NCBI RefSeq assembly: GCF_001424225.1
Contig: NZ_LMOR01000001.1
Coordinates: forward strand, 5,427 to 69,426
Source: Microbacterium sp. Leaf151
GTDB taxonomy: Bacteria > Actinomycetota > Actinomycetes > Actinomycetales > Microbacteriaceae
Reading direction: 5' to 3'
Length of the DNA stretch: 64,000 bases
Shown here one piece after another: positions 48,746 through 64,000 of this stretch (its first letter is position 1; each line of letters opens with the position of its first letter). Made by a program: the position numbers and the translations under genes. Under the pieces are notes generated by a model. The model saw only the letters and a list, made by a program, of their open reading frames with translations. It was not told where the DNA came from and made no database searches.

Positions 48746-50707
48746 ATGACGCTCACCCCTTCTTCACACGCCGCGTACTCCGGCGTCCTCGCGGAGTTCT
48801 GGCGCGCCCAGGATGCCGTCGGTGCCGGCGACAACCTCGCCGATGCCCTTCGACGAACTCTGCGGCCGCCCGAGGATGCCCTCCCCGTCGCGCCCGCGCA
48901 CGATCGCGCCGTGTGGGGTGCGCACGGAACCGCCGATCAGTCCACCGTTGCGGCGGTCCTCTCAAGAGCCTCGGACGACCTCGGCACGAGCTGGCCGGTT
49001 GCGCTCGCGAGCGCAGCCGCACGCGTGCACGGCGACGGGGATCGAGAGAGCTGGGAGTCGGTGGTCTTCGAACGTCAGCGTCGGCTGAGCCGCGCGGTCG
49101 TCGCCGCCGCGGTCACGGAGGAAGGACGCTGGCTCGACGAGGTGTTGGACGGTGTCTGGCTGCTGTGCGAGCAGACCTCGTGGTGCTGGCCGGCACACGA
49201 CGACGCCCACGCCGTCGGCTCGGTTCTCGCCATCCCGGACAGGCCGTTCCTCGACCTCGGAGCGGGAGAGGTGGCGGCGCAGCTCGCGTGGGTCGACCAC
49301 CTCGTGGGTGAGGCTTTGGAGACGGCGTATCCCGGAGTACGAGCCCGAGTCCGTCGTGAGGTTCGTCGACGCGTCTTCGATCCGTTCACGACGCGCAGGG
49401 ATTGGCACTGGATCGGTCTCGACGGCGACGTGCACAACTGGAACCCCTGGATCCACGGCAATGTGATCACGGCCGCGCTTCGCTTGCTCGACGGACCGGG
49501 CGAGCGGGAAGAACGCGGCGAGATCATCGCCCTCGCTCTCGAGGGCATGGACCGGTACGTCACGGCCCTCCCCCTCGACGGTGCCATCGACGAGGGCTAC
49601 GGATACTGGTGGAACGGCGCATGCCGGGCACTGGAAGCGCTCGACGTGGTGTCCTTCGCCACGGAGGGGCACCTCGACGCCGCGGAGGTACCGGCGCTGT
49701 CGGCGACCGTCGCCTTCCCGCACCGCTCGCACCTCGGCGGCGATTGGTACCTCAATCTCGCGGACGGACAGGCGAAGCCACCGAGCGACCAGCCCTGGCA
49801 CGCGTTGCATCGCAGCGCGCGCGCCGTCGGGGATGACGACGCCGTCGCTCACGCCGCGAGCCACCGCCGGCCCGGAGTCCCCGCCGCGACGGAGACCTTC
49901 GGGTTGGGCAGGCTCGTGCGCGGCATGACGGATACGGACTGGATCGAGGCCCCGGCAGTGCCGCCGCCGCTGATCGATCGCGTGTGGCTGCCGTCCACCG
50001 AAGTGCTTCTCGCGCGCGGCCGGAGCGGCTCTACGGCCGGTCTCACCGTGGCGGTGAAGGGAGGCCACAACGGCGAGCATCACAATCACAACGACGTCGG
50101 CAGCTTCGTCCTCGCCTCGGACGGCGTTCCCGTCGTCGTCGACGTCGGGAGGCCGACGTACACGAAGCAGACCTTCGGACCGGACCGATACGACATCTGG
50201 ACGATGCAGAGCGCCTGGCACAACACACCCGTGATCGACGGGCAGCAGCAGAGTCCCGGTCCCGAGTACCGAGCCCGCGATGTCACCGTCACCCTCGACG
50301 AGGCGACCGTCGAATGGTCCGCCGACCTGGCCGGGGCGTACCCCGACGGAGCAGCCGCGTCCTGGCAACGCCATGTCTCGTTCGGCGAAGGCCGCGTCCG
50401 GGTTCGCGACGAATGGCGCAGCGCCGTCGGAGCGGCTCACCGGTGGCACCTCGTGCTCGCTGGCAAAGTGGACGTCGACGCCGGCGGCGCCACGGCGTCC
50501 GTCCGTCCGCTCTCCGGTGCGACACCCGTCGTCATCCGCTGGCCCGCGGGCGTGAGGAGCACCGTGACCCGACGCATCCTGGAGGACCCGCTGCTCACCG
50601 ATGTGTGGGGGACGAGCCTCACCCGTCTCGAACTCGACGTCTCCGACCACCCTGACGTGGTCGTAACCTTCGAAACACACCCTGCAACCACCGAGGAAAT
50701 CCGATGA
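48746..50707 (+). CDS. heparinase II/III-family polysaccharide lyase
   Basis: 653 residues. N-terminal alpha/alpha-toroid (about 1-370; DGDVHNWNPWIHGNVITAAL and AIDEGYGYWWNGACRALEAL) and C-terminal beta-sheet domain with the hallmark GGHNGEHHNHNDVGSFVL and VDVGRPTY of heparinase II/III-type lyases. These cleave uronic acid-containing chains by beta-elimination, leaving the unsaturated ends that GH88 needs. No signal peptide, so it acts in the cytoplasm on imported chains unless exported in another way. ATG at 48746 chosen over 48737 because AGGA (48734-48737) is then well spaced. Stop overlaps the next ATG (ATGA). Confidence 0.85.
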   Translation: MTLTPSSHAAYSGVLAEFWRAQDAVGAGDNLADALRRTLRPPEDALPVAPAHDRAVWGAHGTADQSTVAAVLSRASDDLGTSWPVALASAAARVHGDGDRESWESVVFERQRRLSRAVVAAAVTEEGRWLDEVLDGVWLLCEQTSWCWPAHDDAHAVGSVLAIPDRPFLDLGAGEVAAQLAWVDHLVGEALETAYPGVRARVRREVRRRVFDPFTTRRDWHWIGLDGDVHNWNPWIHGNVITAALRLLDGPGEREERGEIIALALEGMDRYVTALPLDGAIDEGYGYWWNGACRALEALDVVSFATEGHLDAAEVPALSATVAFPHRSHLGGDWYLNLADGQAKPPSDQPWHALHRSARAVGDDDAVAHAASHRRPGVPAATETFGLGRLVRGMTDTDWIEAPAVPPPLIDRVWLPSTEVLLARGRSGSTAGLTVAVKGGHNGEHHNHNDVGSFVLASDGVPVVVDVGRPTYTKQTFGPDRYDIWTMQSAWHNTPVIDGQQQSPGPEYRARDVTVTLDEATVEWSADLAGAYPDGAAASWQRHVSFGEGRVRVRDEWRSAVGAAHRWHLVLAGKVDVDAGGATASVRPLSGATPVVIRWPAGVRSTVTRRILEDPLLTDVWGTSLTRLELDVSDHPDVVVTFETHPATTEEIR

Positions 50708-51816
50708 CGAACCAGGCTACGGCCCCTCTCGCCGCGGAACGTCGCGCCCACGTTCTCGCCATCCTGCGGCGCGAAGGAGCCGTGCGCGTGTCGCAGCTCG
50801 TCGACGAGCTGGGGGTCGCACCCGTCACATTGCGGCGCGACCTGGCTCAGATGGAATCCGAGGGACTGCTGGAGCGCGTGCACGGGGGTGCCGTCGCACC
50901 GGCGGCCGGTCTCTCGGCTCCGGCGTCGGACGCAGCCCCGCCCGTCTCCGTCTCACCGCCCGCGTCCGTCGCCATGCTGGTGCCGTCGCTGAACTACTAC
51001 TGGCCAGGAGTCGTTCGCGGTGCGGAGGCCGCGGCCGCCCGTCTCGGCCTCGGCGTCGTCTTGCGCGGGGCCTCCTACGAGCTGCAGGACGAACGGCCCG
51101 TTCTCGAGCGCCTCGTTCACACAGATGGAGTGCGTGGCCTCATCGTGGCCCCGAACACCGACACCGCACATGCCCAGGACGTCGTGCAGTGGTTGATCGA
51201 CACCGGCGTGCCCAGCGTGCTCGTCGAACGGGAGGCGACGGCGTCGCCGGGCGGCGCACCCGTGGAATCCGTCACCACCGACCACGCCCTCGGGGCCGTC
51301 TTGGCTGCGCGACACCTCGCCGCGCTGGGCCACCGGCGTGTGGGCCTCATCATCTCGCGTGACTCCCCCACCTCGCGCAAGATCACGGCAGGGTGGCATG
51401 CCGCCTGCATCGAGCTGGGGCTCACCCCGAGCGACCACTTCGAATCCATGCTGCCGCCCCGCACCAGCCCCGAGTTCTCCGCGGTCGTCGACGCGACCCT
51501 GGACGCGGCACTCACCAACGGCGTGACCGCCTTGGTGGTGCACTCCGACCCCGAGGCCATGGCCTTCGTCGACCTCGCCCTGAACCGCGGCATCTCGGTG
51601 CCGGGCGACCTGTCGATCGTCGCGTACGACGACGAGATCGCCGAGCTCTTCACGCCCGCGCTGACCGCCGTGGCCCCGCCGCGGCGCGCCGTCGGCGAGG
51701 CGGCCATCGACCTCGTCGCCCGTCGGATGCAGGACCCGGACCGGCCCACCCATCGCGTGATCCTCAGCCCGCGCCTGAACGTGCGGGGCTCGACCGCTCC
51801 GCCGCTGCAGCGCTGA
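50704..51816 (+). CDS. hybrid DeoR-HTH / LacI-type sensor transcriptional regulator
   Basis: 370 residues. DeoR helix-turn-helix (RRAHVLAILRREGAVRVSQL, then VAPVTLRRDLAQMESEGLLERVHGG) joined to a LacI-type sensor (AMLVPSLNYYWPGVVRGAEAAA, GLIVAPNTDT, IVAYDDEIAE). It is a paralogue of the protein at 34496-35638 with the same order of motifs. Coupled to the lyase gene by ATGA and preceded by GAGGAAA. Probably senses an intermediate of the uronate route and acts at the shared promoter 48665-48716. Confidence 0.87.
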   Translation: MTNQATAPLAAERRAHVLAILRREGAVRVSQLVDELGVAPVTLRRDLAQMESEGLLERVHGGAVAPAAGLSAPASDAAPPVSVSPPASVAMLVPSLNYYWPGVVRGAEAAAARLGLGVVLRGASYELQDERPVLERLVHTDGVRGLIVAPNTDTAHAQDVVQWLIDTGVPSVLVEREATASPGGAPVESVTTDHALGAVLAARHLAALGHRRVGLIISRDSPTSRKITAGWHAACIELGLTPSDHFESMLPPRTSPEFSAVVDATLDAALTNGVTALVVHSDPEAMAFVDLALNRGISVPGDLSIVAYDDEIAELFTPALTAVAPPRRAVGEAAIDLVARRMQDPDRPTHRVILSPRLNVRGSTAPPLQR

Positions 51817-51884: not shown

Positions 51885-51986
51885 GGAGCACGTCTGCGGA
51901 GGGTGTGGGATTCTCCCCACCGCCCCTCCGCGGAGCCTCCGGCGGCGTGGGCCCAACTCCGTTCGACTCCCGCTCAACCGGTCATA

Positions 51987-52025
51987 ACGCAGAAGGCGGA
52001 CCCCTACGGGGCCCGCCTTCTGCGT
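51987..52025. terminator. strong hairpin terminator, copy 1
   Basis: 18-bp stem beginning ACGCAGAAGGCGG, one mismatch, loop TAC. Symmetric enough to act in both directions. Confidence 0.8.
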
Positions 52026-52138
52026 TGCGGAGGGTGTGGGATTCTCCCCACCGCCCCTCCACGCGCCGCTGCGCGACGCGCGGAGCCTCCGGCGGCGTGG
52101 GCCCAACTCCGTTCGACTCCCGCTCAACCGGTCATAAC

Positions 52139-52173
52139 GCAGAAGGCGGACCCCTACGGGGCCCGCCTTCTGC
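52139..52173. terminator. strong hairpin terminator, copy 2
   Basis: Same hairpin as at 51987-52025, with the outermost pairs lost. On the minus strand it follows the glycosyltransferase gene at 52255-53439 and would stop its transcript. Confidence 0.75.
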
Positions 52174-52254: not shown

Positions 52255-53439
52255 CTACAGCCTGTGGTCCGTCGCGACGACACCAACCACGCGTTGCGGC
52301 GTACCGTTCGTGAAGGTGACGTGATGATGGATGCGGTGGTGCTTGTAGGCCATGGCGGAGTACGCCGGTTGCGCACGGATGAGGCAGTTCGCCTTGTCGG
52401 CCGTTCCCAGCACCGCATACAGCTCCGACTGTCCCCCGCCACCCTGCGTCGGTTCGGAGTCGTAGCGAACGCCTTGAAACAGAAGATTGACAAGGCCGTT
52501 CTTCGTCAACTCCATGCTCGTCACAACATCATTGTTCTGGCGAGAGTAGTGGGCGATCTGCGTCTCGTTGTTAGTGAGGTAGTAGGAGTACACGCGGGTG
52601 CCGGTACGCCACATGACCGGCACCGTGTACACAGCCCCGAACTTCTCAAGTCCGACGAAACCTGGGTTACGTACCGCTAGCATCACTTCTTCCATGCGCC
52701 GCATGAACCGCTGGTAGTCGAACCCTAAATCAGCGGTCAGCTTCGAGACACGGTGGTATTTGGTGCGGTCGTATGCCTCGTCCTTTTCGAAGGTGCAGTC
52801 GTTGCGCTGGCTCTTCACTGCCAACCCTTTGAAGTCGTCGTCGGCGAACCAGAAGTGGCTCTCCCCCAAGCTTCGCGACAACGCCAACACGAAGTTGCAC
52901 AGGGGAGCATGTCCGGCCATGGTGATGGGAAGCTTCATTGATGAGACCCGGTCCATCATGTCTTCGTCGCGGAACGAGATGTCACGGATGACAAGACGCT
53001 CCACTGGATATACCTTTGAGTAATCTTGGAACTGCGACGGGTCGATGCAGATGTAGTAGTTGCTGACACCGAAGTCCTCTAGCATCTGCATCGTTCCTGC
53101 TGTGCCTGCCCTTTGGTAAGAAGGCACGTAGATGTTGTAGCGCATGCCGTGACGGTCGACGAAACCTTCCGCGGACGAAGGCTCAAACGTCGGGTGCAGC
53201 CAGGCCTGCTTCTCCACTGGCTCGCCGTGGATAGTGGTGGCGAAAAGGGGGTATCGCACGAAGCCCGCAGCTTCAATGTCCGCCATAGCCGCGGCGTTGC
53301 GGTCCCGCTCCTCCTCCGTCTTCATCTCGGCTGCTTCGACACTGAACGGTGCAGCCATCCCGTGGAAGAAATAGCCCGCGTAAGCCTGCCGGAGGTTGTA
53401 ATCGACAGTGCTCGAAGATGTCCCCACGTACTGCCCCAT
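52255..53439 (-). CDS. GT-A glycosyltransferase resembling TET-associated (DNA base) glycosyltransferases
   Basis: 394 residues. From about residue 100: YNIYVPSYQRAGT (nucleotide-sugar strand and the conserved Ser-Tyr-x-Arg), YYICIDPSQFQDY, then HFWFADDDF at about 196-203, the metal-binding acidic triad. The order and spacing resemble the TAGT family (TET/JBP-associated glycosyltransferases, also related to the GREB1 domain), which add sugars to hydroxymethylated DNA bases. No TET/JBP oxygenase or base hydroxymethylase is in view, so the acceptor is open. Residues 1-95 are not recognised. Start set by GAGGAAG. Divergent from the double-ParB gene. Confidence 0.6.
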   Translation of the reverse strand: MGQYVGTSSSTVDYNLRQAYAGYFFHGMAAPFSVEAAEMKTEEERDRNAAAMADIEAAGFVRYPLFATTIHGEPVEKQAWLHPTFEPSSAEGFVDRHGMRYNIYVPSYQRAGTAGTMQMLEDFGVSNYYICIDPSQFQDYSKVYPVERLVIRDISFRDEDMMDRVSSMKLPITMAGHAPLCNFVLALSRSLGESHFWFADDDFKGLAVKSQRNDCTFEKDEAYDRTKYHRVSKLTADLGFDYQRFMRRMEEVMLAVRNPGFVGLEKFGAVYTVPVMWRTGTRVYSYYLTNNETQIAHYSRQNNDVVTSMELTKNGLVNLLFQGVRYDSEPTQGGGGQSELYAVLGTADKANCLIRAQPAYSAMAYKHHRIHHHVTFTNGTPQRVVGVVATDHRL

Positions 53440-53531
53440 TCGCCCGTTCTTCCTCGATTACCCTCGCGCATGACCACGCGCGCCCCACTGTAGGCTAACC
53501 GGAGTCTTCGCAACGCTTGGGGGTAGCGCGA

Positions 53532-54896
53532 ATGAGTGACGAGATTCAGACAATCAGTCTTGGCAATGAACAGCCAGAGTCGCTGAAGATGACGCAGCCT
53601 TTTAAAGTACCGCCGCGACACGAGCAACGCATGGCGCGCGCGGTTCACTCTTCGGGTGTCGTGGCTCCCATCGTGGCAGACCAACACGGCAATGTGATCG
53701 ACGGTCACACGCGCCTGCGTACCGCTCTCAAGGCGGGGTGGGGCACGGTGCCGGTGATGCGGCTGGAAACTACCGAAGCTCAAGCACGTCTGTTGCGCTT
53801 CATCGTCAACAAAAGCGCGGAGTTTCAGCGATGGAACTATGCGGAGGTAGACGCCTTCCTCGCTGTCCCCCACAACAGTTTCACCTACCTCGCGACACTT
53901 GAGCCACTCGGTCTGTTCGGGGAGCACATTATCCCCGAGAGCTTTCTGACGGAGTCGATGCGGAGGTACAAGCTCGATGGCAGCGCTGGTCAAGACAAGT
54001 ACGACCAGAAGGAGGTTTACGAGCGGTGGGCTGTGCGGCGACAGGAGAAGGGCGCGCGACGCGAGCGGGAAAAGGCACTCCAACCGCGTCAAAGGCTCGC
54101 CAGCTACAAGCTGGAACCAGCCGTCCCTCTGCAGGCCATCACCGCACGAGGCGGCTTCAAAATGCGGCAGTGGGAGAAGAAGGCTGCCGCCAAACGAGCA
54201 ATCGGTTTGACGGGGTTCGTCGCCCCGTTGATCCTGGACCAGAATCTGCACACCATCGACGGCACGACACGACTCGAAGTTGTCAACGAGCTACACGCCG
54301 AAGGATGGTGGCCGTCGGGCACCGTTCCCGCGCTCGTAGTCAAGCGGAGCGACCTGCAAGCGGCGTATCTGCGGATGGTGCTCAATCGCACCAGCGAGTT
54401 TCAGGCGTGGGACTGGCACGAGTTGTACGAGTTCGCTGACGCGCACCCGCAGCTTCGTCCGATCTTCGAGCCGTTTGGGCTGTACGGCGCGACTGTCCTG
54501 CCGCCGACAGCGTGGGACAGGACCGCGCTGCACATGGGGCAACGTGCGCCGCTGCCGACGTACACGCCCTCGACCATGACACTGGCCGAGTGGGCGGTGA
54601 TCCAGCAGAAGCGCGTCGCGGCCGACAGAGCCTCTGACGCAGTCTCGCCAATGAAGACCGCGCCCCGCTCCGCCTACGAGAGCGTATTCGATCTGCGTTG
54701 GAGCGAGAGTGATCTACAACCGCTGGTCGACGCCGAAGGCGTCATGCAACGTTTTGTCGATGAGTTGGACGAAGAACTTGGCGACCTGACCATCGCGCAT
54801 GACGATATGCGCGACAGGATGCGCGTAGAGCAAGATGCAGCGAAGGGCATCCTCGATGATCTGCCGCGAGTCAAGACCTTTGATCCCGGCTTCTGA
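53532..54896 (+). CDS. protein with two ParB/Srx-like units
   Basis: 454 residues made of two related halves. Half one: GVVAPIVADQHGNVIDGHTRL (42-62), then RFIVNKSAEFQRWNYAEVDAFL and LEPLGLFGEHIIPESFL. Half two: GFVAPLILDQNLHTIDGTTRL (228-248), then RMVLNRTSEFQAWDWHELYEF and FEPFGLYGATVLPP. Each is a ParB N-terminal-like nucleotide-binding core (G-x-IDGxTR) plus the same helical extension. There is no ordinary ParB centromere-binding HTH and no ParA gene nearby, so a partition role is doubtful. Relatives of this core act as CTP-switches, nucleases or kinases. A glutamate- and arginine-rich stretch (155-190) links the halves. Twelve bases upstream of a PD-(D/E)XK gene. Confidence 0.72.
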   Translation: MSDEIQTISLGNEQPESLKMTQPFKVPPRHEQRMARAVHSSGVVAPIVADQHGNVIDGHTRLRTALKAGWGTVPVMRLETTEAQARLLRFIVNKSAEFQRWNYAEVDAFLAVPHNSFTYLATLEPLGLFGEHIIPESFLTESMRRYKLDGSAGQDKYDQKEVYERWAVRRQEKGARREREKALQPRQRLASYKLEPAVPLQAITARGGFKMRQWEKKAAAKRAIGLTGFVAPLILDQNLHTIDGTTRLEVVNELHAEGWWPSGTVPALVVKRSDLQAAYLRMVLNRTSEFQAWDWHELYEFADAHPQLRPIFEPFGLYGATVLPPTAWDRTALHMGQRAPLPTYTPSTMTLAEWAVIQQKRVAADRASDAVSPMKTAPRSAYESVFDLRWSESDLQPLVDAEGVMQRFVDELDEELGDLTIAHDDMRDRMRVEQDAAKGILDDLPRVKTFDPGF

Positions 54897-54908
54897 GGCG
54901 ACAACACC

Positions 54909-55358
54909 ATGACTACACAGCACATCGGCGCAGCGGGCGAACTGCTCGTGCAGTACCGCCTGCTCAAGATGGGCCTCGACAGCGCGCGCCTCACCACCGA
55001 TTCGGGTGTGGACCTCGTGGTGTACTCCCCCACCACCGCTCAAGCAATCACCGTGCAGGTGAAGACGGTGCGGGAGCCCACGCCCGCGGGTGGTCGAGGC
55101 AAGCTCGCGGTGGGGTGGAACTTCCCCCACGACCTTCGCGCACAGGTGCTCGCCACCGTCGTGCTGTCGGAGGATGAGGTATGGCTGTTCACAATGAACG
55201 AAGCTCAAGGCCTCGCGCAGCAACATAGTGACCGGGGCATGCGCCGCTTGTACTGGTACACCGACCCGTTCTTGGCGTCAGGAGAAGGCTTCCCACTCCG
55301 CCAGGCTGACGTGTACGACAACCTGCTTGCGCGAAGTGCGCCGAAGCTGTTCGCATAG
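54909..55358 (+). CDS. small PD-(D/E)XK nuclease-like protein
   Basis: 149 residues. HIGAAGELLVQYRLLKMG carries a helix with the conserved Glu (E11); D35 in SGVDLVVYSP and Q50-V-K52 in ITVQVKT complete the E...D...QxK pattern of PD-(D/E)XK enzymes, in the style of DUF4365-type proteins. The remainder has aromatic residues (LFTMNEAQ, LYWYTDPF) seen in such folds. Twelve bases after the double-ParB gene and in the same direction, so probably co-expressed. It could cut DNA lacking or bearing a modification. A Glu-to-Gln change at the third motif position is common and compatible with activity. Confidence 0.65.
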   Translation: MTTQHIGAAGELLVQYRLLKMGLDSARLTTDSGVDLVVYSPTTAQAITVQVKTVREPTPAGGRGKLAVGWNFPHDLRAQVLATVVLSEDEVWLFTMNEAQGLAQQHSDRGMRRLYWYTDPFLASGEGFPLRQADVYDNLLARSAPKLFA

Positions 55359-55417
55359 CCCGCCGTGCGCACTGACAGTCTGAGGACGTGCGTGTACGCA
55401 TCGTAGTCGCACCCGCG

Positions 55418-55440
55418 GCGGCAAGCTTCGTCGCTGGTGC
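55418..55440. repeat. dispersed repeat, copy 1
   Basis: 23 identical bases (starting GCGGCAAGCTTCGTCGCTGG) recur at 56567-56589 with weaker similarity around them. Both lie in intergenic DNA downstream of rightward genes. Confidence 0.75.
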
Positions 55441-55455
55441 TGCGGCGGAGACGTG

Positions 55456-55490
55456 CTGACCCCGACCGCTATTGAGTTGGTCGGGGTCAG
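55456..55490. terminator. bidirectional terminator
   Basis: Perfect 12-bp stem CTGACCCCGACC / GGTCGGGGTCAG, loop of 11, between the convergent nuclease-like and small membrane protein genes. Confidence 0.8.
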
Positions 55491-55495
55491 TACAG

Positions 55496-55693
55496 TCAGC
55501 GCGATTCCTGCGAACGTTCGTCAAGCCTGCGTCGACGGCCACGGATGATCATGGACCCGGCACCTACCGCGGCCACCGTCATTCCGCCGATCAGCGGGGG
55601 TATCGGCGAGTTCGCCGGAAGCACGGAAGCAGACACCCACAGCGACGCAAGGAGAGCGACCGTTACGGCCAGGAGAATAAGCCAGCTTTTCAA
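55496..55693 (-). CDS. small two-span membrane protein
   Basis: Not recognised. 65 residues with two hydrophobic segments (WLILLAVTVALLASLWVSA and PPLIGGMTVAAVGAGSMII) and a basic tail (RGRRRRLDER). TTG at 55693 is proposed as the start because GGAGG sits seven bases before it; an upstream in-frame start at 55717 has no such site. Confidence 0.6.
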   Translation of the reverse strand: MKSWLILLAVTVALLASLWVSASVLPANSPIPPLIGGMTVAAVGAGSMIIRGRRRRLDERSQESR

Positions 55694-55833
55694 GGTAGGA
55701 CCTCCATCCGGTTGCACTCGACACTACCTTTCGCCCCTCGCACTGCAACCTGTGGAGATGAGAACCTTCTAACCTGCAACGTCCTGCGTTCGTGACACGG
55801 TTGATGCTCGCCGTTCGAACGAAAGGACTCACT

Positions 55834-56442
55834 TTGAGAAACCTCCGCAAGACCGCAAGCGTCATTCTCGCCGTTGGCGTGGTAGCTGCCGCGAGTTTGA
55901 CAGGAACGCAAGCAGCTTCCGCGCAAAGCACGGAAGTAATCGCAACATCCGCATCTGTGGCCCAGACCGAGACCATCACACCGGAGCAGTTCCAGACTGC
56001 GCTGCAAGGGCTGGAGGCGAGCGACACACCGCGTACTGCCATTCGGGCAGGGGAAGCAACCCTCTACGAGTACCACTTCCCCGAGGGGGACCTGACCTTC
56101 CCCTCGGAGGCAACGTTCCTCGCGTCTGCGGCGACGGGTGAAGCAATCGCTGACCCTGGCGTTGTATCGCCCATGATCGAAGTAGTCACGAAAGGGCAGT
56201 ACATGGCCGTCGGCCTGAACCGCGCCGATCAAGCCTTGCTGGTGGGCGGAGGCGGCGCAGCGCTCGGCCTCGCCCTCTGCGCGATCCCCGGAGTATGCCC
56301 CGTGTCGACCATTCTCATCGCTGGAGCAGTGGCGTACCTGACCGAACGAGGTCTGTGCCCCGAGGGCCAGCAGCTGTGGTGGTACGACGTGAAGGGCGGC
56401 TCGACGTTCGCCTGCCGTAGTTCAGCTCCGGCCCTGCCGTAA
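55834..56442 (+). CDS. secreted protein with hydrophobic C-terminal segment
   Basis: Not recognised. 202 residues: signal peptide (LRKTASVILAVGVVAAASLTGTQAASAQ), an acidic middle part, then a hydrophobic glycine-rich segment with cysteines (LCAIPGVCPVSTILIAGAVAYL and RGLCPEG, later FACR), four Cys in all. The shape recalls a small secreted toxin or bacteriocin-like protein, but nothing specific supports that. TTG at 55834 is chosen because AAAGGA stands six bases before it; a GTG at 55792 lacks one. Confidence 0.6.
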   Translation: MRNLRKTASVILAVGVVAAASLTGTQAASAQSTEVIATSASVAQTETITPEQFQTALQGLEASDTPRTAIRAGEATLYEYHFPEGDLTFPSEATFLASAATGEAIADPGVVSPMIEVVTKGQYMAVGLNRADQALLVGGGGAALGLALCAIPGVCPVSTILIAGAVAYLTERGLCPEGQQLWWYDVKGGSTFACRSSAPALP

Positions 56443-56449
56443 CAGGAAA

Positions 56450-56487
56450 GCTCCGTGCTGCCCCGTAAGACAGGGGCAGCACGGAGC
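56450..56487 (+). terminator. terminator of secreted-protein gene
   Basis: Perfect 15-bp stem GCTCCGTGCTGCCCC with an eight-base loop, eight bases after the stop codon. Confidence 0.85.
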
Positions 56488-56566
56488 CACCATGAGCTAC
56501 TTGCGCGAGTCCGCCCGTGGCTGACAACCTAAGCGTGTGTGCGCTCGAAGCATGTTCGCACCCATT

Positions 56567-56589
56567 GCGGCAAGCTTCGTCGCTGGTGC
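56567..56589. repeat. dispersed repeat, copy 2
   Basis: Second copy of the 23-base element at 55418-55440, 1.15 kb away, between two terminators. Confidence 0.75.
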
Positions 56590-56621
56590 CGCGGCGTAGC
56601 GCCGCCTGCTCCCACAAGAAA

Positions 56622-56647
56622 GGGGCGGTAGCCTCAGCCACCGCCCC
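56622..56647 (-). terminator. terminator of first prepilin gene
   Basis: GGGGCGGT pairs with ACCGCCCC, with a further two pairs after one mismatch. Followed on the minus strand by TTTCTTG, 12 bases after the prepilin stop codon. Confidence 0.75.
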
Positions 56648-56658
56648 TCCCGGGTTCG

Positions 56659-57126
56659 TCAAGTCCAGCCGTTTAGGTCTTTGCGATTTGCACCCGCGCC
56701 CGCCCATTCATCGTGGTCGTTCATCACGTAGATGTAGAGATTCCCGGGTGTCGATTGCTCCCGGCCGCTGTGCCAGAAGTTGTGGATGCCACCCACGGTG
56801 CGGGTGATGCGAATGTTTCCGAAGCCTGCGCCGATGTAGTCGTAGGGTGCGGCGGTGAAGGCGAACTCCCCACGGTGCTGGTCGTTGTAGTACTGCACGA
56901 CGGCGAACGGGTCCGCGCCAGACTCCTCCGCAACACGCACATCAATGGCAACCTGCTCGGCCATCGAGAGCAGTACGTTCTGGCGCGCCTTCTCCTGGAT
57001 TGCACCGAAGATGGGCAAGCCAACCAGGAGCAATATGCCGAGGATGGCCACCGCCACGATGAGTTCCACGAGGCCAAAGCCTCGCTCCCCGCGGGTGCGG
57101 GCTTGTCGAAGTATTGCAAATGTCAT
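56659..57126 (-). CDS. type IV prepilin-like protein 1
   Basis: 155 residues. Leader of 16 residues ending in Gly (RTRGERG), then FGLVELIVAVAILGILLLVGLPIFGAI with the required Glu at +5 of the mature protein (E21): a class III signal cut by a prepilin peptidase. The C-terminal globular part is short, with NFWHSGREQ and LYIYVMNDHDEW. AAGGAGG before the ATG. Shares GAIQE-AR-N and a DEWAGAG/GEWAGAG C-terminal motif with the second prepilin (57777-58229), so the two are paralogues. No pilus ATPase, peptidase or platform gene is in the window. Confidence 0.85.
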   Translation of the reverse strand: MTFAILRQARTRGERGFGLVELIVAVAILGILLLVGLPIFGAIQEKARQNVLLSMAEQVAIDVRVAEESGADPFAVVQYYNDQHRGEFAFTAAPYDYIGAGFGNIRITRTVGGIHNFWHSGREQSTPGNLYIYVMNDHDEWAGAGANRKDLNGWT

Positions 57127-57180
57127 GGGAAGCCTCCTTGTCAGTTCCCTGCACGGCCTGGGCAACGTGCGATGTAGTTA

Positions 57181-57435
57181 TCAGCGGAGCCGGTAGCGGC
57201 GCGGTCGCAGCTTGACCACGGCAGTGACGGCCACCACCGCAGCGACGCCGATGGCCCCCATGAGGCAGAGTTCCCACCACTCACGAGTAGCGGTCCATTC
57301 GACAAACGAACCGACCAGGTCACCCATCTGCTGCACGAAGCTGCGGGCATCCTCTTCCACCTGCGCGTCGCGCTCCCAACGGTCCTCAAACAGGTCGTCG
57401 AGCGACGCAGGTACCGTCGGCTGACGAACGGTCAC
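57181..57435 (-). CDS. small membrane protein
   Basis: Not recognised. 84 residues: acidic N-terminal half (LDDLFEDRWERDAQVEEDARS), a membrane segment (LCLMGAIGVAAVVAVTAVV) and a basic end. GTG overlaps the stop of the HTH gene (GTGA), so the two are coupled. Fifty-four bases upstream of the first prepilin. Confidence 0.65.
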   Translation of the reverse strand: MTVRQPTVPASLDDLFEDRWERDAQVEEDARSFVQQMGDLVGSFVEWTATREWWELCLMGAIGVAAVVAVTAVVKLRPRRYRLR

Positions 57436-57617
57436 CCTCCCGCCTGACCTTTCAGGAACTCCTGCTGAAACCCCATGAAGTCGGACCGGCGCGCGCGGTT
57501 GTGGTTGCCCACGAGGTGGGTGGGGAACGCACCCGCGCGGATGAGCTTGCGGACAGTGGGGCGCGACACTCGAAGTAGTAGCGCCATTTCGGGCACCTTG
57601 ATGAACTCAGCGGTCAT
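57432..57617 (-). CDS. excisionase/AlpA-like helix-turn-helix protein
   Basis: 61 residues: IKVPEMALLLRVSRPTVRKLIRAGAFPTHLVG is a winged helix of the excisionase/MerR-like HTH_17 type, and NHNRARRSDFMGF a following basic segment. Such proteins direct excision or regulate mobile elements. GGAGGC lies before the ATG and a GATATT element about 52 bases upstream. It heads a set with the small membrane protein and prepilin 1. Confidence 0.75.
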   Translation of the reverse strand: MTAEFIKVPEMALLLRVSRPTVRKLIRAGAFPTHLVGNHNRARRSDFMGFQQEFLKGQAGG

Positions 57618-57668
57618 GACGAAAGCCTCCCAGGCGGTAAGGGCGGGGTAGTTCCCAACCTTGTGGCC

Positions 57669-57674
57669 AATATC
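57669..57674 (-). promoter_or_regulatory. GATATT element upstream of HTH gene
   Basis: GATATT (minus strand), extended as GATATTGGCC, the same ten bases as at the recombinase gene. It lies 52 bases before the ATG. A candidate -10; no clear -35. Confidence 0.4.
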
Positions 57675-57719
57675 ATCTTGTTTCCGCTATTGCTCGTAGC
57701 TGTGGGCGGGCGTAAAAAG

Positions 57720-57751
57720 GCCCCCACCGGATCAGCAACTCCGGTGGGGGC
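57720..57751 (-). terminator. terminator of second prepilin gene
   Basis: 11-bp stem GCCCCCACCGG / CCGGTGGGGGC, loop of ten, followed on the minus strand by CTTTTTAC. Confidence 0.9.
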
Positions 57752-57776
57752 TCCTTCGCATTCGAAGGCCAGAAAC

Positions 57777-58229
57777 TTAGCGAGGCCAGGACTGACTTGC
57801 CGCTCCAGCAGAACCGGCTCCTGCCCATTCGCCGCGGTTGTTCACCGCATACACGTAGATGGTGTCAGTAGAGTCCATTGAGGCCTGCACAGCGGGCACG
57901 TTGATTGTCCCGCCAGTGACGGATTCAATTTGCGTACCGCCCCCAGCAGAGTACCGAAGCTCGCTCGGGTTCTGGCTGTTTAGCTTCTCGATAGCGGGCT
58001 GGACAGCGCTCGGGCCACTAGCGGTCACCTGTGCCGCAAGCGATGTCGCAGCGTTGGCGGCCGCAGTCTTGACGGTGTTGTGACGAGCAGTCTCCTGGAT
58101 AGCACCGAATACGGGAATAGCAATCACCACGAGGATGCCGAGGATGGCAACCACGACGATGAGCTCGACGAGGGAGAAGCCCTTCTCGCCGTTGCGGTGC
58201 TTAAGCGCGTTGTTGATGAAAGAAATCAT
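57777..58229 (-). CDS. type IV prepilin-like protein 2
   Basis: 150 residues. Leader of 17 ending in Gly (RNGEKG), then FSLVELIVVVAILGILVVIAIPVFGAIQETARHN with Glu at +5 (E22). The globular part is small, Ser/Ala-rich and ends in IYVYAVNNRGEWAGAGS. AAGGAG before the ATG. It has its own promoter-like GATATT upstream (58290-58295) and a strong terminator, so it is probably made in large amount as the major pilin, with the 56659-57126 protein as a minor one. Confidence 0.87.
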   Translation of the reverse strand: MISFINNALKHRNGEKGFSLVELIVVVAILGILVVIAIPVFGAIQETARHNTVKTAAANAATSLAAQVTASGPSAVQPAIEKLNSQNPSELRYSAGGGTQIESVTGGTINVPAVQASMDSTDTIYVYAVNNRGEWAGAGSAGAASQSWPR

Positions 58230-58289
58230 GGGGTTTTACTCCTTGTTAGCCCTAAGGGGCGATTAATCGAGGCGTTTTGCCTCGGGAGT

Positions 58290-58295
58290 AATATC
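58290..58295 (-). promoter_or_regulatory. GATATT element upstream of prepilin 2
   Basis: TTGATATTAC on the minus strand, about 61 bases before the prepilin ATG. Candidate -10. Confidence 0.4.
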
Positions 58296-58327
58296 AACTT
58301 GGGTTTCCCCTAGTTCCGCGAGTTCCC

Positions 58328-58453
58328 CTAGACCGGCAGAACGGGTGTGGGTTGGGCCCCTGACATGAGCCATAGCAGCACCGCCCAGCAGCCAAGGTGG
58401 ATGGCCGCGGCGGCAAGCGCGAATGCAGTCCCCACCTTTCTGCGGCGGCTCAT
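58328..58453 (-). CDS. 41-residue single-span membrane protein
   Basis: Not recognised. A basic start (MSRRRKVGT), one membrane segment (FALAAAAIHLGCWAVLLWLM) and a short tail. The ATG overlaps the stop of the gene before (ATGA), which supports it being translated. Lies upstream of the prepilin 2 gene. Possibly a helper of pilin export or assembly. Confidence 0.6.
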   Translation of the reverse strand: MSRRRKVGTAFALAAAAIHLGCWAVLLWLMSGAQPTPVLPV

Positions 58454-58980
58454 GCGTTGTCCTTCTTGCGGAGGTTGAAGGCTGTCCACAGCACGATGAA
58501 GACGACGAGGCCAGCGAACAGCGTGGGTGCGATAGCGGCAGGGGCGATGCTCACGGAGGGGGCGGTAGAGCCGGTGGCGGCCGCAGGTGCCATGTCCTGC
58601 ACGTCGATCACGGTCTTGTTCAGCACGGGGTTGGCGGCTTCAACCGCGGCGGTCTTCTCCTTCGCGAAGCGCAGCGTGGGAGCGGCTTCAGCCTCAGCCT
58701 CGGCCACCTTCTCGTCACCGATGGACTTCTTGATGTTCGCGAGGCCGCTTGTGAACTCCTCTTCGAGGTTATCGAGCGCGGAGAGGTCACCGGTTGCGGT
58801 GATGCGCGAAACCTCGTTGCGCATGCTCCCCTGATTCTCGACGACTTCCGCAGTGGTGGCAGCCTTTGCCACAGTCGATTGGACAGACGGGGCGGCGAGC
58901 ACGAACACGAAGCCCATGATGACCATGGTGACCATGAGGTTGACGATGGATGCGTTGCTCTTTGCGGATGACTTGCTCAT
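58450..58980 (-). CDS. membrane protein with two terminal spans
   Basis: Not recognised. 176 residues: N-terminal hydrophobic stretch (IVNLMVTMVIMGFVFVLAA), about 100 charged helical residues rich in Glu and Lys (likely coiled coil at about 45-105), then a C-terminal membrane segment (TLFAGLVVFIVLWTAF) and KKDNA. It lacks the Gly/Glu+5 prepilin signature, although the N-terminal span has a pilin-like position. First gene of the 58-kb set, with AAAGGAG before its ATG, coupled to the 41-residue gene. Confidence 0.65.
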   Translation of the reverse strand: MSKSSAKSNASIVNLMVTMVIMGFVFVLAAPSVQSTVAKAATTAEVVENQGSMRNEVSRITATGDLSALDNLEEEFTSGLANIKKSIGDEKVAEAEAEAAPTLRFAKEKTAAVEAANPVLNKTVIDVQDMAPAAATGSTAPSVSIAPAAIAPTLFAGLVVFIVLWTAFNLRKKDNA

Positions 58981-59031
58981 GTTTCTTGCTCCTTTAGTGG
59001 TGATGTTGGGCGCCTAGGTGGTGGCACAACT

Positions 59032-59037
59032 AATATC
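59032..59037 (-). promoter_or_regulatory. promoter-like GATATT with TTGTTT
   Basis: Minus-strand GATATT preceded, after a 17-base spacer, by TTGTTT (59055-59060). Best promoter of the five GATATT sites; 52 bases before the ATG at 58980. Confidence 0.5.
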
Positions 59038-59120
59038 GCTACGGGAAATACGGGAAACAAAGGAAACCAGCATGCGCGTGAGCCGCGGCACTTCGCTGTC
59101 GCGGGTGTACGATCCGTCTT

Positions 59121-59438
59121 ATGGCTACCCGTACATACACAAGCATTACCGATGACATTGACGGCAGTGAGGACGCCTCCCCCGTCACCTTCGCCTTCGA
59201 TGGCACCAGCTACTCCATCGACCTTTCTGCTCGCAATCGGAAGAAGCTTGAGGATGCGCTGGCTCTTTTCATCGAGCACGGCACACGCGACGGCACGAGC
59301 GGCAAGCGCACACCGAAGGGCTCCCCCACCTGGAACCGCGAGGAGCTGAAAGCATGGGCGAAAGAGAACGGGCACAAGGTCAGTGACCGCGGGCGCGTGC
59401 CGCAGGCCATCGTGGATGCGTATCTGGCGGCGCGCTAA
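59121..59438 (+). CDS. lsr2: Lsr2-family nucleoid-associated protein
   Basis: 105 residues. N-terminal dimerisation domain (TYTSITDDIDGSEDASPVTFAFDG, YSIDLSARNRKKLEDAL) and C-terminal DNA-binding domain (NREELKAWAKENGHKVSDRGRVPQAIVDAY) with the RGR minor-groove hook. Slightly shorter than chromosomal Lsr2, as mobile-element copies often are. Lsr2 silences AT-rich foreign DNA. A TACGAT eight bases before the ATG suggests a short or absent leader. Stop overlaps the next ATG (TAATG). Confidence 0.92.
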   Translation: MATRTYTSITDDIDGSEDASPVTFAFDGTSYSIDLSARNRKKLEDALALFIEHGTRDGTSGKRTPKGSPTWNREELKAWAKENGHKVSDRGRVPQAIVDAYLAAR

Positions 59439-59683
59439 TGGCGAATGAGTGGATCGAGCTTGTGAAAGAAGCTCATCGTCACGGTGGGCCGCAGGCGATG
59501 AGGCAGGCATACTCGTCGGCGGGGAAGGCCAGCGCAGGGAACAGCATCATGCTCGTGGCCGCCATCGGAGCCGCAGGTGCAGCGGTGATGGGCTTTCTGT
59601 GGATACGTGACACGATCCGTGGCATCCCCGACCCGGTCACTGCGGACGAAAACAGCGGTGACGAGGAACCATCCACGTTCTGA
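59438..59683 (+). CDS. small membrane protein coupled to lsr2
   Basis: Not recognised. 81 residues: amphipathic N-terminal helix (EWIELVKEAHRHGGPQAM), one membrane segment (SIMLVAAIGAAGAAVMGFLWI) and an acidic tail. Starts within the lsr2 stop codon, so expression is linked. Confidence 0.65.
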   Translation: MANEWIELVKEAHRHGGPQAMRQAYSSAGKASAGNSIMLVAAIGAAGAAVMGFLWIRDTIRGIPDPVTADENSGDEEPSTF

Positions 59684-59699
59684 CTGCTCGCATAGCAAC

Positions 59700-59729
59700 G
59701 CCCTCGCCTCTTACGGATGAGGCGGGGGC
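59700..59729 (+). terminator. terminator after lsr2 operon
   Basis: GCCCTCGCCTC pairs with GAGGCGGGGGC (one G-T pair), loop of eight, 17 bases after the stop codon. Confidence 0.8.
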
Positions 59730-59738
59730 TTCGTGGTG

Positions 59739-59897
59739 TCAGTGCTGTGTGTAGTCAGGCATCCATACTCCGGGGCCGAAAGAGGTGTCGGGGGTGGCAT
59801 CCGCCTCGAGGTCACCGTTGTCTGCGGCGTTGGCCAGACGGCGTGAGTACCAGTCGCCCAGCGGCACGGGTGCCTGTCGGGCTTCGCACGATTGCCT
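59739..59897 (-). pseudogene. possible 3' gene remnant
   Basis: A leftward frame reads PLGDWYSRRLANAADNGDLE and ends GVWMPDYTQH followed by TGA, with protein-like composition, but it has no upstream body: a stop codon lies about 50 codons before its end. A GTG at 59867 would give 42 residues but has no ribosome-binding site. Either the tail of a lost gene or a very small gene. Not recognised. Confidence 0.4.
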
Positions 59898-59922
59898 GAG
59901 CTACGCCCACGAGGCGGCGAGG

Positions 59923-60234
59923 TCACTCATCATCGCCCAGCCAGTACAGCGAGATAGCGAGGTCAATGGTGGGCATATGAAAGAGCGCGATGCGCACGTC
60001 GGTTGCCGCATTGCTCATGAGTACGATTACATCCCGAAGGATACGCGGGTAGTCGTAGTGCGCATTGATGGTTCGCTCGTGATCCGCTTCCAATGGGCTC
60101 ACGCTCACACCATCCGCGTTCAGCCACCGCACCTCATTGTCAAGTCTGTCTCTGAGCACGAGGTCTTCAAGCAGTCGCCACCGGAGATAACTTGTGGTCG
60201 CTTCCTCGATGGTCCGTTTTGGTTCACCGGTCAC
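59923..60234 (-). CDS. hypothetical protein, 103 residues
   Basis: Not recognised. No membrane segment; mixed helix-strand composition (EEATTSYLRWRLLEDLVLRDRL, then VRIALFHMPTIDLAISLYWLGDD). GTG at 60234 is fixed by AAAGGAGG seven bases before it. A 15-base palindrome and a GATATT element stand directly upstream, so it has its own regulated promoter. Confidence 0.65.
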   Translation of the reverse strand: MTGEPKRTIEEATTSYLRWRLLEDLVLRDRLDNEVRWLNADGVSVSPLEADHERTINAHYDYPRILRDVIVLMSNAATDVRIALFHMPTIDLAISLYWLGDDE

Positions 60235-63018: not shown

Positions 63019-64000
63019 ATGGCTAACGAACGAATAACTGAGGATCTCGTCGAGGCTCGCTTACGAAGCCTCGGTTACTACGACGACGAGGACAGCATCG
63101 TCGTGGAGAAGCAGCAGTCCGCAGTAGAAGCGATCCGGAAAGCGCTGTCTCGGGCGTCCAAGTCAGGCAAGGGCCGCGCCGCCGGGTATCCCGAGTTCAT
63201 CATCACCAGCCCCAGCACGCCCGACATGGTGGTTCTTGTAGAGTGCAAGGCCGATGTCAGGCATCACCAGTCCGATGCTCGCGACCTACCGAAGGACTAC
63301 GCGGTGGACGGGGTTCTGCACTACGCGCGGCACCTCTCCCCGAACTACACGGTGATCTCTATCGCCGTCTCTGGTACGCCGCAGACAAACGCGTGGTCTT
63401 TCTTCGTCACGCCGAAGGGCTCCAACCTCGAGCACGATCTCGTTTCACCGACAGGCGCGCCTGTCACCACGATGATTGGTCTCGGCGACCTCATAGCCGC
63501 GGCGTCATTCGATCCGCGGGTTCAGCGTCAGCGAGAACGCGACCTGCTGTCCTTTGCGATGGAGATGCATGTCTTCATGCGCGACGAGGCCGAGCTTGAG
63601 GAGAAGGAAAAGCCGCTTGCAGTCGCAGGTAGCCTCATAGCGCTTAAGGACCAGGTCTTCGCGAGAACCTACGATGAATACCCAGCAGTCGACTTGCCAG
63701 AGTATTGGATCCAATCCATCAAGAAAGTCATCCGAGCGGCGCGCCTACCTGTAGACAAGCTTGACAACATGACCCAGCCATTTACCGGCATTCAGGTACA
63801 CCCCGAGCTACGAAAGCCTACGAAGGGGTACCCGAAGGGCTTGCTGAACGAGATTGTGACGATGCTCGCCGAGAAAGTGATGCCTTTCATCACCGTGTAC
63901 CACGATTTCGATGTAGTGGGCGCCTTCTACGGCGAGTTTTTAAAGTACACCGGTGGCGACGGCAAGGGCCTTGGTATTGTTCTTACGCCGCGACACGTAA
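63019..64000 (+). CDS. restriction-modification protein, nuclease + N6-adenine methyltransferase (partial)
   Basis: First 327 residues, running off the window. N-terminal PD-(D/E)XK-like nuclease domain: YPEFIITSPSTPDMVVLVECKAD (about 58-80; Asp, Glu-x-Lys catalytic motif), then YARHLSPNYTVISIAVSGTP. From about 290, ITVYHDFDVVGAFYGEFLKY and GLGIVLTPRHV are the typical entry to an HsdM-like N6-adenine methyltransferase domain. The catalytic NPPY motif would lie beyond the window. The order nuclease-methyltransferase fits a type IIG or type I-like single-chain enzyme. ATG at 63019 is the first good in-frame start. Confidence 0.82.
   Translation, partial: MANERITEDLVEARLRSLGYYDDEDSIVVEKQQSAVEAIRKALSRASKSGKGRAAGYPEFIITSPSTPDMVVLVECKADVRHHQSDARDLPKDYAVDGVLHYARHLSPNYTVISIAVSGTPQTNAWSFFVTPKGSNLEHDLVSPTGAPVTTMIGLGDLIAAASFDPRVQRQRERDLLSFAMEMHVFMRDEAELEEKEKPLAVAGSLIALKDQVFARTYDEYPAVDLPEYWIQSIKKVIRAARLPVDKLDNMTQPFTGIQVHPELRKPTKGYPKGLLNEIVTMLAEKVMPFITVYHDFDVVGAFYGEFLKYTGGDGKGLGIVLTPRHV

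Follow-up and report, generated by a model that had tools for sequence, protein, structure and literature searches.

The window analysed here, 64,000 nucleotides of the Microbacterium sp. Leaf151 contig NZ_LMOR01000001.1 (positions on the contig are prefixed C1), carries three neighboring genes at one end of an integrative element (Table 1). They encode a GT-A glycosyltransferase of the TET-associated glycosyltransferase (TAGT) family, a protein carrying a pair of ParB_N-like domains, and a small protein with a PD-(D/E)XK nuclease fold. Pfam, PHROGs, profile searches, and fold comparison agree with the gene types and positions given in a preliminary description of this DNA, and the TAGT gene does lie divergent from a ParB-nuclease unit as described there. 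The ParB and nuclease genes are separated by 12 bases. The TAGT gene has the lowest G+C content of the trio (58.3%), with 61.2 and 63.8% in the other two.

TAGTs were reportedly first defined by Iyer and others in 2013 in Nucleic Acids Research (NAR). A significant profile match to this family had been set beforehand as one test of the preliminary description, and the window protein matches Pfam PF20691 over residues 101-335 at 48.2 bits, above the curated cut-off of 27.5 bits (E 1.7e-12), as well as phrog_842 (2.5e-21). We aligned it with 70 viral relatives, taken from 77 TAGT open reading frames (ORFs) at 80 viral loci after five near-duplicates or cut ORFs and two beyond the length limits were left out. 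All 22 columns that are invariant among the 71 sequences are kept in the window protein, including R110, D200, D201, R300, N302, D304, H371, and H372, at 21-29% identity to the viral sequences. Its AlphaFold2 model (predicted local distance difference test, pLDDT, 75.6; predicted template modelling score, pTM, 0.78) was closest to LARGE1 among solved structures (2.2e-5), and all ten matches at E <= 1e-3 were named glycosyltransferases. The top match in a viral structure library was a TAGT protein (3.7e-22), and a sequence search of the Protein Data Bank (PDB) returned nothing usable. The GT-A fold, the DxD motif, and the conserved core residues of the family are present in alignment and model and are common to phage TAGTs (PF20691/phrog_842). 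The window protein differs from these in its distant sequence, its N-terminal region, the absence of the phage accessory domain, two motifs considered below, and its location on a bacterial mobile element. A match of its N-terminus to DUF2612 (17.4 bits, cut-off 23.5 bits) was not believed. In the available parts of two reports, the T6 TAGT is a GT-A protein of PF20691 that modifies phage DNA, with the T6 beta-glucosyl-HMC-alpha-glucosyltransferase as a family member (PMC13216743), and a TAGT likely attaches the second glucose in Tequatrovirus (PMC13390438).

The adjacent 454-residue protein scored 25.1 bits against Pfam ParB_N when searched as a protein, just under the cut-off of 26.3 bits, and 26.8 bits, just above it, in the genome scan. 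A profile derived from phage ParB proteins located two ParB_N-like stretches in it. A full-length segregation ParB was not recognized (TIGR00180, 19.1 bits, cut-off 58.45 bits). The chromosomal parB is a separate gene at C1:674317, and it and the double ParB gene are the only Pfam ParB_N matches in the host genome. No ParA was present among 21 of the element proteins, which were scanned with Pfam. A PDB sequence search returned weak ParB matches (best E 0.072), and a plasmid search one distant, single-domain match. Nuclease or NTPase roles of ParB-like domains are described from conflict systems and from systems of restriction and modification (PMC5512222, PMC10853773).

The 149-residue protein has no family above cut-off, its Pfam match reaching only 0.14. 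Residues E11, D35, and Q50xK52 are invariant in 8/8 and 5/5 aligned sequences, both alignments including the window and Microbacterium testaceum proteins. A model built from five sequences (pLDDT 77.3, pTM 0.76; the five models span 77.3 to 37.2) matches the SPARDA nuclease subunit (2.8e-6) and superposes on I-Ssp6803I (Z 14.2, root-mean-square deviation 2.4, 128 residues); a sequence search of the PDB gave nothing usable. With the predicted fold and the catalytic D...(E/Q)xK pattern both present, the protein is, as modelled, of PD-(D/E)XK nuclease fold. It shares this fold with the SPARDA nuclease subunit, I-Ssp6803I, and Hjc, from which it differs in having no Argonaute part and only 11-23% sequence identity. 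Relatives were found in ten plasmid records and, with the eight-sequence alignment as query, in three viral contigs; a two-sequence alignment gave no match in viral contigs, and there was none in phage records. Neither a ParB nor a TAGT relative lies near the nuclease in the eight plasmid loci read. Among the three viral nuclease loci, a ParB-like gene (7.4e-15) is present only in L107, at a distance of 1.4 kb from the nuclease and on the opposite strand. In L102, L103, L106, and L107, the ORFs adjoining the nuclease resemble GIY-YIG proteins on visual inspection; they had no Pfam match, so we claim no pairing.

ParB_N proteins are frequent immediate neighbors of TAGT genes in one clade of viral TAGTs. 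The viral loci were the best 80 of at least 271 TAGT relatives from a profile-derived scan of viral contigs, and single linkage at 50% places all of their TAGTs in a single cluster. ORFs were called mechanically (4108 across the 80 loci), so the gaps between genes are rough. The first ParB domain of the window matched 44 of these ORFs at E < 0.1. Each of them lies on the same strand as the TAGT and begins ahead of it, and five end at a distance of over 100 bases. With an iterated profile, a ParB_N part was recognized in 56/80 loci. It was directly upstream of the TAGT (ending between -200 and +60 bases of the TAGT start) in 51/80, or in 49 of the 75 loci whose upstream sequence extends to 650 bases or more; random placement among the neighbors would be expected to give 7.0 of the 56 ParB_N-bearing loci. 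As an independent check, Pfam ParB_N matched in 23 of the 45 viral records submitted out of the 80. Counted by TAGT cluster, ParB_N was directly upstream in 24/37 clusters at 70% identity, 3/6 at 60%, and 2/4 at 55%, so common ancestry limits the weight of these viral figures. No ParB_N part was present in any of seven isolate-phage loci, where profile matches spanned only the linker domain described below. Terminase-like genes follow the ParB_N-TAGT pair in many loci, with two large-subunit-like families (32/80 and 15/80 loci) named from sequence. The window resembles the phage pair in having a ParB_N protein as immediate TAGT neighbor and differs in having two ParB_N domains and not one, and a nuclease downstream. 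A comparable row is printed for Stenotrophomonas phage DLP3, in which gp102-gp106 include a glycosyltransferase-domain gene, a 103-residue hypothetical protein, ParBc, and the terminase large subunit; in this case, the glycosyltransferase is reported as RfaB-type and not TAGT, the ParB is assigned a lysogeny role, and the accessible text carries no remark on the gene neighborhood (PMC7326821). No paper naming a ParB-TAGT link was found in the literature searched, most subscription papers being outside its coverage.

At their C-terminus, the phage ParB proteins carry a distinct domain of about 80 residues (consensus EWQGMPEF...KITEKTKSIWFP), referred to here as the linker domain. Viewed as the pattern WxGMPxF...KTKSIWYP, it is seen in viral contigs L017-L096, mostly immediately upstream of the TAGT. 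The domain occurs in 77/80 viral loci. It shares an ORF with ParB_N in 56 of them and lies outside any ParB_N ORF in 21; among the latter, L024 is cut by the contig edge, L068 has the domain in the TAGT ORF, and L094 has it downstream. It is fused to the front of the TAGT in 6/6 isolate-phage proteins tested, and one copy searched against 50,697 phage records returned eight records, each with the domain in or beside a TAGT match. The more distant gene of Microbacterium phage GardenB has neither ParB_N nor linker domain. Stand-alone copies had no Pfam match (three searched) and no PHROGs match (two searched). Whole ParB-domain proteins fall in PHROGs ParB families with some matches extending into the linker domain, as for phrog_723, which spans residues 2-185 of 206. 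That this domain is joined to ParB in one phage and to TAGT in another is an argument for contact between the two proteins.

The ParB-nuclease unit recurs in M. testaceum TPD7010, where ParB and then nuclease are adjacent with a 4-base overlap, giving an operon in a second Microbacterium element. Gene order is shared from ParB through the pilins to Lsr2. Ten window proteins were compared: seven show 76-97% identity, ParB shows 42%, and two (216 and 81 residues) are unmatched. Identity of the nuclease is 86%, and DNA similarity sets in at a sharp junction 6 bases into its gene. The simplest inference is that ParB is replaced or evolves quickly beside a nuclease that stays constant, as is seen with recognition parts, and other causes are possible. 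The double ParB was found in its own genome and M. testaceum among 247 same-genus genomes, and in its own genome with one weak single-domain match among 398 same-family genomes. A contig scan of 84,980 species, built on two short peptide patterns, gave M. testaceum as the one double-ParB relative. The nuclease was likewise confined to its own genome and M. testaceum among 99 same-genus genomes, and the M. testaceum ParB part had no match in viral contigs.

Above cut-off, the TAGT was found in 1/247 same-genus, 1/297 same-order, and 1/396 same-phylum genomes (overlapping draws), each time its own genome, and single-protein scans gave no relative in genome contigs or viral contigs and no match in plasmids. 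Matches in two further genomes (G295 and G154) were under cut-off, and the G154 ORF resembles, by eye, an ordinary family-2 glycosyltransferase. Joint recurrence of the three genes, which the preliminary description had asked for, was seen in no other genome within the limits of the searches made. The statement made there that the trio matches no known system calls for amendment: ParB beside TAGT is frequent in one viral TAGT clade, and published work already reports ParB_N as a neighbor or fusion partner of other enzymes that modify DNA (PMC12783734, PMC5512222). Recurrence gives no support to a fixed three-gene system but does support two pairings, that of ParB with TAGT in phages and that of ParB with the nuclease in Microbacterium elements.

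The borders of the element are marked by several features. G+C content drops from about 70% to about 62% at 52 kb of the window and goes back up near contig position 91 kb. The low-G+C stretch terminates at a tRNA-Ser gene, which a tyrosine integrase adjoins. The 3' end of this tRNA gene is directly repeated at attL and attR, 33,291 bases apart, giving an element of 33.3 kb. Around the tRNA, the match begins at query base 21-26, which is the repeat, in 12 same-genus relatives, and in one relative, the nearest (L110), the chromosomal terminator unit preceding attL runs straight into the tRNA as an empty site. With integrase, tRNA target, direct-repeat ends, and empty site all found, this is an integrative element. 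The trio comprises the first genes at its integrase-distal end, and is one end of the element and not a free cassette. The terminator unit by tRNA-Ser (51895-52171) is present in two copies at the left end, of which one seems to be carried by the element. A LacI-type gene left of attL (50704-51816) was not found in 11 same-genus relatives within 1.5 kb beside the tRNA, so sharing does not extend to the wider left flank; the terminator unit is shared in one relative.

Other genes of the element include a Prim-Pol/D5-type primase, Lsr2, a serine resolvase, a second Lsr2-like gene under cut-off, and a BcgI-like restriction-methylase with its specificity gene. Two pilin-like genes (56659-57165 and 57777-58229) with an N-terminal methylation motif lie near Lsr2, in an order kept in M. 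testaceum TPD7010. Between the nuclease and the pilins, 55792-56442 encodes a 216-residue protein that has no family assignment and no match in the M. testaceum contig; by eye, its start resembles a signal sequence. Beyond the window, a 444-residue protein (C1:72309-73643) is a weak match to DzbB (PADLOC, 6.4e-7).

Table 1. Features of the trio and of the surrounding element. Positions are those of the window unless prefixed C1 (contig).
Feature	Position	Strand	Remarks
TAGT-family GT-A glycosyltransferase	52255..53439	-	394 aa (amino acids); Pfam, PHROGs, alignment, model
TAGT subdivisions			family match over a core of about residues 100-377; first 95 residues with no accepted family
Divergent intergenic region	53440..53531		92 bases
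Double ParB_N-like protein	53532..54896	+	454 aa; without full-length segregation-ParB match
ParB_N-like domain 1	53619..53861	+	residues 30-110; 1.3e-16 against phage TAGT-linked ParB profile
ParB_N-like domain 2	54189..54434	+	residues 220-301; 3.5e-9 against phage TAGT-linked ParB profile
Small PD-(D/E)XK nuclease-fold protein	54909..55358	+	149 aa; conserved residues and predicted fold
attL	52025..52044 (C1:57451)		20-base direct repeat of tRNA-Ser 3' end
attR	C1:90742		second repeat copy, beyond window
BcgI-like restriction-methylase	63022..64000, on to 64893	+	PADLOC REase_MTase_IIG 4.4e-116
Specificity gene of BcgI-like pair	64890-65897, past window end		PADLOC Specificity_II 1.1e-46
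Region colinear with M. testaceum TPD7010 contig	54915..59987		DNA identity in three blocks
Colinear blocks	54915-55450; 56521-59419; 59689-59987		85%; 83%; 87%

The base that might accept a sugar was sought in the viral records and in the host. Among the 45 viral records, none had a thymidylate-synthase-family or hydroxymethylase-type gene, none had TET/JBP above cut-off, and two had a C5-methylase; as these records may be fragments, the absence of acceptor genes is suggestive only. A single TET/JBP match in one viral record (G537) was under cut-off (14.8 bits, cut-off 34.9 bits). The preliminary description had remarked that no TET/JBP oxygenase is nearby, and the same searches extend this to the whole host genome, which also has no C5-methylase match and has one ordinary thymidylate synthase. 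In GardenB, one Microbacterium phage read, a glycosyltransferase lies near a thymidylate synthase.

The reading that we favor, tentatively, is that the trio is element-end cargo acting on DNA, in which a glycosylation part is joined to a restriction-like ParB-nuclease operon. The roles we infer are as follows. The double ParB protein would be a DNA-binding adaptor serving two enzymes. It would position the TAGT on DNA, as its phage relatives appear to, and with the nuclease it would form a restriction-like pair, ParB being the variable half that gives recognition and the nuclease the constant half. As the host shows no recognized acceptor-making enzyme, the sugar would most likely go onto hydroxylated or otherwise modified bases brought by phage, or onto an acceptor not yet known, and the outcome may be protection of the element or the host against competing DNA. 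The BcgI-like restriction pair on the same element and the occurrence of the ParB-nuclease operon in both elements found count for this reading. So do the 22 invariant columns kept by the TAGT, the viral ParB_N-TAGT adjacency with its linker domain, the contrast between 42% identity for ParB and 86% for the nuclease, the scarcity of ParB_N genes in the host genome, and the published ParB-like parts of restriction and modification systems (PMC5512222, PMC12373910).

It is a realistic possibility, which we rank second, that the cargo genes are independent, with the TAGT a captured phage gene, the ParB-nuclease unit a separate module, and their proximity functionally meaningless. The findings that weigh against a joint system include several that favor independence directly, namely that the trio recurs nowhere searched, that the TAGT is on the opposite strand and has the lowest G+C of the three, and that M. 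testaceum has the ParB-nuclease pair with no TAGT found in its genome, so this pair does not need a TAGT. The M. testaceum contig stops inside ParB, which makes an assembly gap a possible reason for the missing TAGT. Independence is also favored by the absence of the phage linker domain from the window pair; it was not found in the window proteins by hmmsearch with filters off (best E 0.51), so the parallel between the window and phages is one of adjacency and family only. Further points against the favored reading are that the TAGT is divergent from ParB in the window and co-directional with it in phages, that the viral counts stem from one TAGT clade, and that none of the 4108 ORFs of the viral TAGT loci is a nuclease relative. 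The window ParB also matches phage ParB-methylases, so its sequence does not single out the TAGT-linked ParBs. Finally, a nearly invariant ARN is LCN in the window TAGT and the ED of 'RYNED' is ND, so activity of this enzyme is not assured. Against independence, one viral clade repeatedly places ParB next to TAGT, and this recurrence together with the presence of only two ParB_N loci in the host genome makes a chance neighbor unlikely.

A type IV system is an improbable alternative, in which the ParB-nuclease pair would be a GmrSD-like restriction of modified phage DNA and the TAGT would either create the mark on hydroxylated phage DNA or block it on self DNA. One published type IV system (PMC12373910) pairs two ParB_n proteins, of which one also has a nuclease domain, and needs both ParB_n domains as well as the nuclease. 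This two-gene system is the closest printed parallel to a double ParB with a nuclease among the texts available, the two ParB_N-like domains and nuclease of the window resembling the GmrS1/GmrSD2 doublet in makeup, and the printed system is linked to modified DNA. GmrS has been described as ParB-like in an excerpted source (PMC5512222), and the activity of the T6 TAGT on phage DNA (PMC13216743, in part) and the gene arrangement of GardenB are in keeping with such a mark. In contrast to GmrSD, the window has both ParB domains in one protein, its nuclease is of PD-(D/E)XK and not HNH/His-Me type, and neither ParB nor nuclease has a Pfam match to DUF262 or DUF1524 at E up to 1. A non-DNA target, such as the pilin-like proteins of the element or a surface polymer, is very unlikely: the fold is common to many polysaccharide and protein glycosyltransferases, the two pilin-like genes lie 3-5 kb off, and the host has no detected known DNA acceptor pathway, but the nearest profiles, the nearest named viral structures, and the conserved positions are all those of TAGTs.

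A broader proposal goes beyond the reading of the trio as cargo acting on DNA. With only a slim chance of being right, ParB_N may serve as a common targeting module for enzymes that modify DNA by unrelated chemistry (methylases, CmoX, and TAGT), would be linked to TAGT through a so far unnamed domain, and would be coupled here to a nuclease as well, in a glycosylation-based restriction system. The published systems in which ParB_N is fused to DNA methyltransferases or lies beside CmoX (phrog_498) are likewise partnered with a DNA-modifying enzyme and differ in that the enzyme is another one and often fused (PMC12783734, in the part available). Under this proposal, the TAGT would write or hide a mark that is read by a GmrSD-like ParB-nuclease pair, with an acceptor that arises by no known route.

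Among 753 phage genomes with such glucosyltransferases, 288 carry a solitary TAGT, for which PMC13216743 gives no defined function, and ParBc genes, frequent near CmoX and fused to methyltransferases, are assigned no known role beside DNA-modifying enzymes in PMC12783734. The phage ParB_N-TAGT pair with its shared linker domain connects these two questions and makes it testable whether ParB_N recruits the enzyme to DNA. Bacterial TAGT loci like the one in Microbacterium are rare (one above cut-off among the 396 same-phylum genomes), and this one has an added nuclease.

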